From: Pyrinomonadaceae bacterium
GTDB taxonomy: Bacteria; Acidobacteriota; Blastocatellia; Pyrinomonadales; Pyrinomonadaceae
Direction of reading: 5' to 3'
Length of the DNA stretch: 64,000 nucleotides
Assembly (NCBI GenBank): GCA_026129865.1
Contig: JAHCHG010000001.1
Location: 372,001 to 436,000 of the forward strand
Positions within the stretch are counted from its first letter, which is position 1. Each line of letters opens with the position of its first letter. Below, one piece after another: positions 46,340-49,320 of the stretch. Both the position numbers and the translations under genes were made by a program. The notes beneath the pieces are model-generated. The model saw nothing but the letters and a program-made list of their open reading frames with translations. It was not told the DNA's origin and did not search any database.

Positions 46340-46482
46340 AAATTCTCCTAATAGCTCGCTGCTCCGCATGTTTCTCAAATAAAGCTGCTGCGAAGCGCGT
46401 AAAGTTATATCTAATTTATTCTCTTCTTAATACTGGAATTTTTTTCCGAAAGTTTCAAATGATAAGGCTTTCGCGGCATGGC

Positions 46483-46511
46483 TTGACAGTCTTCGGAATA
46501 GGAAGCATTAT
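46483..46511 (+). promoter_or_regulatory. Candidate sigma-70 promoter for the leader upstream of the methionine gene
   Basis: A consensus -35 TTGACA (46483-46488) and CATTAT (46506-46511) are separated by 17 bp. The start site would be near 46518, followed by about 115 nt to a terminator-like hairpin. Confidence 0.55.
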
Positions 46512-46517
46512 AGGTTG

Positions 46518-46638
46518 CATATCGTTCGTGGTGAGTTATAGCAACTTGCGACCACGTTAAATAAACTGCTAAACAGCCGATTCGACAGTTCACATTTTCC
46601 GAAGGTCTCGCGTTGTTTAGGACGTGAGACCTTTTTTT
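46518..46638 (+). ncRNA. Candidate structured leader RNA ending in a terminator hairpin (possible attenuator)
   Basis: Between the promoter-like sequence and the start codon at 46680 there are three hairpins: CGTGGT...ACCACG (46527-46556) with an inner GAGTT/AACTT pairing, AACTG...CAGTT (46564-46589), and GGTCTCGCGT...ACGTGAGACC (46604-46631), the last followed by seven T. No plus-strand gene lies upstream to be terminated, so the hairpin more likely controls the downstream homocysteine methyltransferase gene or ends a small RNA. It does not match the SAM-I, SAM-II, SAH, THF, cobalamin or T-box patterns that I know. Confidence 0.5.
46604..46638 (+). terminator. Intrinsic-terminator hairpin 42 bp before the methionine-pathway gene
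   Basis: A 10-bp stem (GGTCTCGCGT with ACGTGAGACC, one G-U pair) and TTTTTTT. Its position just upstream of the coding sequence is what suggests attenuation. Confidence 0.8.
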
Positions 46639-46679
46639 GTTTTCGCGGTAGAATATCGGTTGATCAAGTTTTCAAAAAT

Positions 46680-48575
46680 ATGAGAAATTTTCGTGAAATT
46701 TTGGAAAACGACAGTGTATACGTTTTCGACGGGGCGATAGGGACGCGGTTTTATGATAAGGGAATTTATATAAACCGTTCCTACGACGAACTTAACCTCA
46801 ACGCGCCGGATCTTGTGCGCGAAGTTCACGAAGAATATGTCCGCGCCGGTGCCGACATTATTGAAACCAACAGCTTCGGTGCGACGCGGCATAAACTTAA
46901 GCAATATAGTCTGGAAAATAAGCTGCACGAGATAAATTTGGCGGCAGCGCAGATCGCACGTCAGGCTGCCGGTGAAGATATTTTCGTCGCCGGTGCGATC
47001 GGTCCGCTCGATCTTAGGATCGAACCTTACGGTCCGACATCGTTCGAAGAAGCCCAGGAGATGTTTGCCGAACAGGTGCGTCCATTGTTAGAAGGCGGCG
47101 TCGATCTGTTTATTTTGGAGACGTTTTCCGATCTTTCTGAAATTCAGCAGGCGATACGCGCTGTTCGAAATCTCTGCGATCTGCCGATCGTAGCGCAGAT
47201 TACCATTCAAACCGACGGAAAAACCGTTTTCGGCGCGACGCCCGAAATTTTCACAAAACGCCTGGAAGATTGGGGCGCGGATGTTGTCGGGGTAAACTGC
47301 GGCGTCGGACCGACGCATATTCTGAACGCGCTCGAAACAATGCGCGGCGTAACAGATCTGAAACTTTCAGCTCAGCCAAACGCTGGACTTCCCCGCGACG
47401 TCCAGGGACGCCAGTTTTACATGTGTTCGCCGGAATATATGTCGAAATTTGCGAAGCGGTTCATTAAGGCAGGCGCAAAGTTCATCGGCGGATGCTGCGG
47501 CACGACGCCGAAACATATCAAATTGATCGCGGATTCGGTTAGAGCCGTCAGCCCGCGCGCCTCGCGTTCGGCGCCGTCGCAGCCCGCGAAGGTGATCGAA
47601 ACTAAAATTCCGGTCGTCGAAGTAGAACCGATTTCGCCGCTCGTGCGTTCCCATTGGTCGCGGAAGGTCGCGCTCGGTGAATTTGTAACATCGGTCGAAG
47701 TTTTGCCGCCGAAAGGCATCGCGGCTGAAAATACTTTAAAGAACATAGCGCTTTTAAAAGACGCCGGTGTCGACGCCGTAAATATTCCCGACGGACCGCG
47801 CGCGCAGACGCGTATGAGCGCGCAGGCGACCGCAATTTTGGTCGAACAAAAACTCGGCATCGAAGCCGTTCTTCACTACTGCTGCCGCGACCGAAATCTT
47901 CTGGGAATGATGTCCGATCTGCTCGGCGCAGCAGCTTTAGGACTGCATAATCTTCTGATCATCACCGGCGATCCGCCGAAAATGGGTCCGTATCCGGACG
48001 CGACGGCGGTTTTCGATATCGATTCGATCGGTCTCACGAACATGGTCAACAAGCTCAATCACGGGCTCGATCTAGGCAACAATCCGATCGGCGAACCGAC
48101 CGCGTTTTCTATCGGTGTGGGTGTAAATCCGGGCGCGCTGAATTTGGAAGAAGAGATCCGCCGATTTGAATGGAAGGTCGAAGCAGGCGCGGAGTACGCC
48201 ATCACCCAGCCGGTTTACGACACCGAGCAGCTTCGCGAATTTATGGAAAAGATCGCGCATGTGAAGATCCCGATCATCGCCGGAATTTTCCCGCTGGTGT
48301 CGAGCCGGAACGCCGAATTTATGCATAACGAGGTTCCGGGCGTTCGCGTTACTCAGGATATCTTGGACAGAATGCGCAAGGCTTCGGACATTTCAAAGGA
48401 ACATGCGCGCGAAGAAGGCTTGCAGATCGCCCGCGAAGCCCTGACCGAGGTCCGCGATCTCATCCACGGCGTGCAGGTTTCGGCACCGTTCGGCAACGTA
48501 AAATACGCGCTGCAGGTTTTCGATGTTTTAGAAGAATTCCGAACCCGCCGCGCCGAAACAGTCGCGATCCCGTGA
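46680..48575 (+). CDS. Bifunctional homocysteine S-methyltransferase / methylenetetrahydrofolate reductase
   Basis: 631 residues, the layout of YitJ-type fusions. The N-terminal Hcy-methyltransferase domain (about 1-300) has FDGAIGTRFY near 13-22 and the zinc-binding cysteines in GVNCGVGP and FIGGCCGTTP (near 270-279). The C-terminal MTHFR domain (about 325-620) starts EFVTSVEVLPPKG and carries LLIITGDPPK (near 427) and GAEYAITQPVYD. Known function of fused proteins: forming 5-methyl-THF and transferring a methyl group to homocysteine to give methionine; the methyl donor of this form is not fixed by sequence. The gene follows a putative attenuator leader. Confidence 0.92.
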   Translation: MRNFREILENDSVYVFDGAIGTRFYDKGIYINRSYDELNLNAPDLVREVHEEYVRAGADIIETNSFGATRHKLKQYSLENKLHEINLAAAQIARQAAGEDIFVAGAIGPLDLRIEPYGPTSFEEAQEMFAEQVRPLLEGGVDLFILETFSDLSEIQQAIRAVRNLCDLPIVAQITIQTDGKTVFGATPEIFTKRLEDWGADVVGVNCGVGPTHILNALETMRGVTDLKLSAQPNAGLPRDVQGRQFYMCSPEYMSKFAKRFIKAGAKFIGGCCGTTPKHIKLIADSVRAVSPRASRSAPSQPAKVIETKIPVVEVEPISPLVRSHWSRKVALGEFVTSVEVLPPKGIAAENTLKNIALLKDAGVDAVNIPDGPRAQTRMSAQATAILVEQKLGIEAVLHYCCRDRNLLGMMSDLLGAAALGLHNLLIITGDPPKMGPYPDATAVFDIDSIGLTNMVNKLNHGLDLGNNPIGEPTAFSIGVGVNPGALNLEEEIRRFEWKVEAGAEYAITQPVYDTEQLREFMEKIAHVKIPIIAGIFPLVSSRNAEFMHNEVPGVRVTQDILDRMRKASDISKEHAREEGLQIAREALTEVRDLIHGVQVSAPFGNVKYALQVFDVLEEFRTRRAETVAIP

Positions 48576-48812: not shown

Positions 48813-48867
48813 GTTTTTCGCGTACCAAATGAGCCGCGAGGGACCCAGATTTTTAGGAGTTTCTAAA

Positions 48868-49320
48868 ATGAGAAAACAGCATTTCGTTACCAAAATCGCC
48901 CTATCATTTGCGATAACTTTTCTCTTATCCGTTCCCGCCATCGCCTCCGGCGGCGAATTTCGAAATTCGAGCGGCAACACGATCGGTTCGTTAAAATCCG
49001 ACGGATCGGTGAGAAACTCCGCCGGAAACACCATCGGCTATTTCAAAGACAACGGCGACGTCCGCAACGCGAGCGGCAACACGATCGGCAAGATCGACAG
49101 CGACGGAACGGTCCGAAACTCGAGCGGAAACACCATCGGCAAGATCAATTCAAACGGCGACGTCCGCAACTCAAGCGGCAACACCATCGGCAAAGTAACC
49201 TCCAGCGGCGACGTCCGCAACGCCAGCGGCAACACCATCGGCTCAACCCGCGGCGACATCTCCATTCATCAAGCTGCTGCATTTTTCTTCTTTTTCTTTA
49301 CAGAACAGGCGGCAAAATAA
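48868..49320 (+). CDS. Secreted 17-residue tandem-repeat protein
   Basis: 150 residues from the ATG at 48868, with SD TAGGAG. A signal peptide (about 1-27, cleaved near IASGG) is followed by six copies, the first one partial, of a 17-residue repeat with core VRNSSGNTIGKI and alternating GD/GT/GS starts. The strict spacing and Asn/Gly turns suggest a beta-helix or stacked beta-solenoid. A C-terminal hydrophobic stretch (HQAAAFFFFFFTEQAAK) could be a membrane-insertion tail. No function known; similar repeats occur in uncharacterised secreted proteins. Confidence 0.75.
   Translation: MRKQHFVTKIALSFAITFLLSVPAIASGGEFRNSSGNTIGSLKSDGSVRNSAGNTIGYFKDNGDVRNASGNTIGKIDSDGTVRNSSGNTIGKINSNGDVRNSSGNTIGKVTSSGDVRNASGNTIGSTRGDISIHQAAAFFFFFFTEQAAK

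Follow-up and report, generated by a model that had tools for sequence, protein, structure and literature searches.

A SAM-II riboswitch ahead of an HMT/MTHFR gene in a Pyrinomonadaceae bacterium, and a probable antiterminator formed by its SAM-pocket strand

What controls the methionine-pathway gene that starts at position 46680 of the window, the 64,000-nucleotide stretch of Pyrinomonadaceae DNA that we analysed as a whole? The gene (46680..48575, plus strand) encodes a homocysteine S-methyltransferase fused to methylenetetrahydrofolate reductase (HMT/MTHFR; PF02574 and PF02219). It is matched by NF006396 with 754.6 bits (cut-off 453), which bears out the pathway assigned to it in the original prediction. 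That prediction described the leader of the gene as an attenuator with a promoter, hairpins and a terminator, and saw in it none of the known riboswitch consensus motifs. Beyond the gene, at 48829-49320, the window encodes a short Bflower_2 beta-flower protein (PF21785) with repeats of the form RNSSGNTIGxxxxDG and a run of phenylalanines close to its C-terminus.

The sigma-70-type promoter is present as described (46483..46511, plus strand): TTGACA (46483-46488) and CATTAT (46506-46511) are separated by a 17-bp spacer and match the consensus at 10 of 12 positions. Of 127 related aptamers, 117 have a promoter-like pair with at least 9 of 12 matches in the 75 nt that precede them, usually one that ends 13-17 nt ahead of P1, as against 3 of 148 random 75-mers taken from the same loci, so the promoter reflects more than chance. 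The upstream neighbour, an M16 peptidase gene ending near 46378, lies on the minus strand, in agreement with the claim that no plus-strand gene stands just upstream.

A cmscan of the whole window gave only two Rfam matches, one tRNA and SAM-II (SAM_alpha, RF00521), the latter at 46518..46592 on the plus strand with 39.3 bits, above the gathering score of 36. The supposed lack of a known motif is thereby refuted by the criterion that came with the prediction itself, a covariance match to a known class; SAM as a natural ligand, one of those originally suggested, is supported. The alignment to RF00521 retains P1, both pocket elements, CUUGC (46545-46549) and GCUAAA (46568-46573), and the GUUAAA linker. 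The P1 hairpin (46527..46556, plus strand; from the Rfam alignment and folding) pairs CGTGG (46527-46531) with CCACG (46552-46556), a pairing kept in relatives. Its loop contains the 5′ strand of the P2 pseudoknot, GCAACTTGC (46541..46549, plus strand), which we assigned by hand from the CTTGC and GCTAAA elements of SAM-II. The 3′ strand of P2 is the SAM-pocket strand, GCTAAACAGC (46568..46577, plus strand), proposed from complementarity statistics to serve also as an antiterminator arm. In our assignment GC at 46548-46549 pairs with GC at 46568-46569, and GC at 46541-46542 with GC at 46576-46577. The P2 strands are conserved in relatives; the hand-assigned pairs, about 2+2 Watson-Crick, are near-invariant across the family, and covariation is therefore uninformative for P2. 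The folding z-score of the leader is −2.24.

Other classes fared worse. SAM-II long loop (RF01726) reached 18.8 bits, below its gathering score of 44. SAM-I, SAM-V, SAH and THF riboswitches had no Rfam match at gathering within the window and none in the leader up to E = 1, and no SAM-I riboswitch (RF00162) was found in this genome. The initial proposal of a new riboswitch class with a ligand from the methionine pathway could appeal to nothing beyond the divergence from the Rfam consensus, namely a loop shorter by three bases and a weak distal P2. Set against these departures are the RF00521 match above gathering, the retained core (CTTGC, GCTAAA and P1) and RF00521 scores of up to 53.6 bits in relatives. 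Because of this match and of the conservation of the element in 58 of 60 family genomes, we rejected a new class, which we consider highly improbable. By its sequence, then, the leader is an ordinary SAM-II riboswitch, predicted to bind SAM.

Of the 60 family genomes (Pyrinomonadaceae-like Acidobacteriota), the 58 with RF00521 matches usually have two each; none of 14 control genomes has a match, and a sample of 297 genomes from across the phylum includes 40 that have one. Among the named relatives with a SAM-II pattern are Pyrinomonas methylaliphatogenes (Blastocatellia, Pyrinomonadaceae) and several Blastocatellia/Pyrinomonadaceae MAGs. A homocysteine-methyltransferase-like frame follows SAM-II at 107 of 116 loci, being either a fusion of about 65-80% identity or a metH-type domain of about 30-35% identity. 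Within a single acidobacterial family, then, SAM-II control is almost universal and extends to both metH and the HMT/MTHFR fusion; a search of the open-access literature for SAM-II in Acidobacteria or Pyrinomonas found nothing relevant.

The present genome (4.4 Mb) also has a second SAM-II copy (42 bits); the metH-like frame downstream of it is 1201 codons long, and two small reading frames stand between them. At this locus (L001, G000:C12:413475-416549), as at L073, L083 and L092, several hundred extra bases lie between the metH-type riboswitch and metH; here they contain a gene for an HNH endonuclease and another frame that has no Pfam match. Since such genes sit between riboswitch and metH, they seem to have come under riboswitch control. 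Further families of the same taxonomic class have tandem SAM-II aptamers (L127/L259 in G273, L248 in G115, and G104:C64:9738-9950), at L127 with a terminator for each aptamer; tandem SAM-II arrangements as such are already known (PMC9481103). Elsewhere in the phylum, at L120, L124 and L125, a second element, SAM-II/SAM-V-like, comes after a SAM-II-like aptamer; at L120 this arrangement precedes a metK-like start, and at L124 the second GCTAAAAGGAGG includes a Shine-Dalgarno-like sequence. This arrangement suggests transcriptional plus translational control.

Between the aptamer and the start codon lies the predicted intrinsic terminator with its seven T (46601..46638, plus strand), made up of arms at 46601-46614 and 46621-46634, a loop at 46615-46620 and a T-run at 46632-46638. 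The hairpin (46601-46634) has 14 pairs including G-U and an energy of −21.7 kcal/mol. A scan of the region found 2 such hairpin sites with 5.5 expected, which is not above chance by itself; the significance of the terminator comes instead from its conservation, a terminator-type hairpin being found downstream of 137 of 141 related aptamers. Chance hairpins were ruled out on this ground. The expected terminated transcript is about 120 nt long, as originally anticipated, and the attenuator architecture is supported. We conclude that the leader very probably stops transcription when S-adenosylmethionine is sufficient.

How could the aptamer govern this terminator? A 9-bp complementarity exists between the terminator loop region (46612-46620) and the SAM-pocket strand at 46569-46577. 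When leaders of relatives were compared next to one another, the stems of the downstream hairpins varied and the loops were shared (for example GUUGUUUAG or CUGUUUGG), and these loops are complementary to the aptamer strand GCUAAACAG. Contiguous Watson-Crick pairing reached at least 6 pairs in 83 of 129 distinct related hairpins, at least 7 in 68 and at least 8 in 52, leaving 46 without 6 contiguous pairs. The number expected with at least 6 pairs was far smaller, with a mean of 4.3 (maximum 10) after shuffling of the loop and 4.6 (maximum 11) after shuffling of the strand. As a control from the window, 4 of 196 terminator-like hairpins reached 6 pairs, one of them the terminator at 46601-46634 itself. 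Among the related hairpins there are 115 distinct 5′ arms, so the loop has been retained although the stems differ.

Variation in the pocket strand points the same way. At one variable position the aptamer:loop combination is C:G in 60 cases and G:C in five, with no C:C or G:G. The five G:C cases represent no more than about two lineages, and ancestry does not enter into the Fisher test. Aptamers with G in place of C often have the matching loop base, and several have no clear partner; at L126, GCUAAAGAA pairs with UUCUUUAGC over 9 bp. Eight variant loci give a better fit with their own strand than with the common one, and two A-variants and L128 give a worse fit; the A-variants L100 and L107 retain an unmatched loop. 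In other acidobacterial classes (L252-L258) no clear loop pairing was seen, and L124 has a 10-bp pairing with the terminator 5′ arm.

These data bear on two other uses of the complementarity. One is a classical antiterminator acting through the terminator 5′ arm, for which loop complementarity would be incidental or an accessory nucleation site. The pairing predicted in the window does reach the 5′ arm (46608-46610 and 46605-46607), and sampled Alphaproteobacteria pair the distal P2 strand with that arm. In the relatives, however, the loop is the centre of the conserved pairing (mean 3.7 nt in the loop, 2.6 nt in the arm), which starts mostly at the first base of GCUAAA, the arms are variable, and the G/C compensation sits in the loop; we therefore regard this scheme as unlikely. 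The other would have a released riboswitch RNA pair in trans with the other SAM-II leader, as might be imagined from the presence in each genome of two leaders whose loops match and from the SAM-II-derived sRNAs of Sinorhizobium, for which no trans function was shown (PMC9373788). Yet the complementary loop is also kept in leaders (L003 and L004) whose genomes showed only one copy, and most G-variant aptamers fit their own loop, making pairing in trans scarcely credible. On balance we favour a distinct SAM-II expression platform in Blastocatellia, in which GCUAAACAG would be both pocket and antiterminator strand and would be captured by the terminator loop.

Folding of the nascent RNA illustrates this platform. 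The proposed antiterminator (46569..46620, plus strand), which pairs 46569-46577 with 46612-46620 and is extended by 46578-46580/46608-46610 and 46584-46586/46605-46607, is the minimum-energy fold of RNAs ending at about 46616-46628. For an RNA ending at 46622 it has −25.5 kcal/mol, versus −13.0 kcal/mol with the pocket strand blocked. From 46631 onwards the minimum-energy fold is the terminator, which forms already from 46625 when the pocket strand is blocked to mimic SAM. Since the full-length fold is also the terminator (−33.7 kcal/mol), read-through must be kinetic. The antiterminator was preferred at some nascent length at 122 of 129 real loci versus 116 of 258 strand-shuffled trials; because 45% of shuffled strands pass, the test is weakly specific, and we rejected it as proof of antitermination and use it only as an illustration.

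The analysis establishes the class match with its conservation and gene context, the promoter and the terminator, and a conserved complementarity with compensatory change; SAM binding, termination, co-transcriptional kinetics and the direction of regulation are inferred. We consider the riboswitch likely to be a transcriptional OFF switch of HMT/MTHFR that works through the pocket-strand antiterminator. Without SAM, the strand 46569-46580 would pair with the emerging terminator loop and 5′ arm (46608-46620); with its parts thus captured, the terminator would form too late and the HMT/MTHFR gene would be transcribed. With SAM, the pocket strand would be locked around the ligand in the P2 pseudoknot, the hairpin 46601-46634 would form, and an RNA of about 120 nt would be released.

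SAM-dependent attenuation of methionine genes, including those of the HMT/MTHFR (yitJ) family, is the function of Bacillus SAM-I (RF00162), which would share this outcome with the present leader but uses a different aptamer. In the guanidine-IV riboswitch, antitermination also involves pairing of the terminator loop (PMC11611296, PMC7736828) and provides a precedent (PMC11611296; PMC10907184), but there the ligand promotes the pairing (ON, kissing loop), whereas here it would prevent it (OFF). Within SAM-II, terminators after the aptamer have been known since the discovery of the class (PMC1273637), and the mechanism was described in 2007 as not experimentally established (PMC2258182). The metZ leader of Sinorhizobium meliloti is likewise predicted to terminate with SAM and release a short RNA (PMC9373788), differing from the present case in host phylum and gene. 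No description of loop-directed SAM-II antitermination was found in the open-access papers searched, and the probable use of the SAM-pocket strand as antiterminator with the terminator loop as its target is modestly new as a variant.

The SAM-II riboswitches of Alphaproteobacteria (SAM_alpha, metA motif, RF00521) share the aptamer, the nearby promoter, the downstream terminator and the methionine genes (PMC1273637; PMC2258182). Unlike theirs, the distal P2 here is only about 2 bp. In a set of 95 loci, most of them alphaproteobacterial, the complementary stretch is found 7-8 bases further along and falls within the 5′ arm of the terminator (mean 6.0 nt in the arm, 0.5 in the loop), so that the distal P2 strand would pair with the 5′ arm there and the pocket strand with the terminator loop here. 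Blastocatellia and Alphaproteobacteria thus appear, as judged from their leaders, to link a shared aptamer to its terminator in different ways, and the comparison yields two explicit, testable pairing schemes, one for each group.
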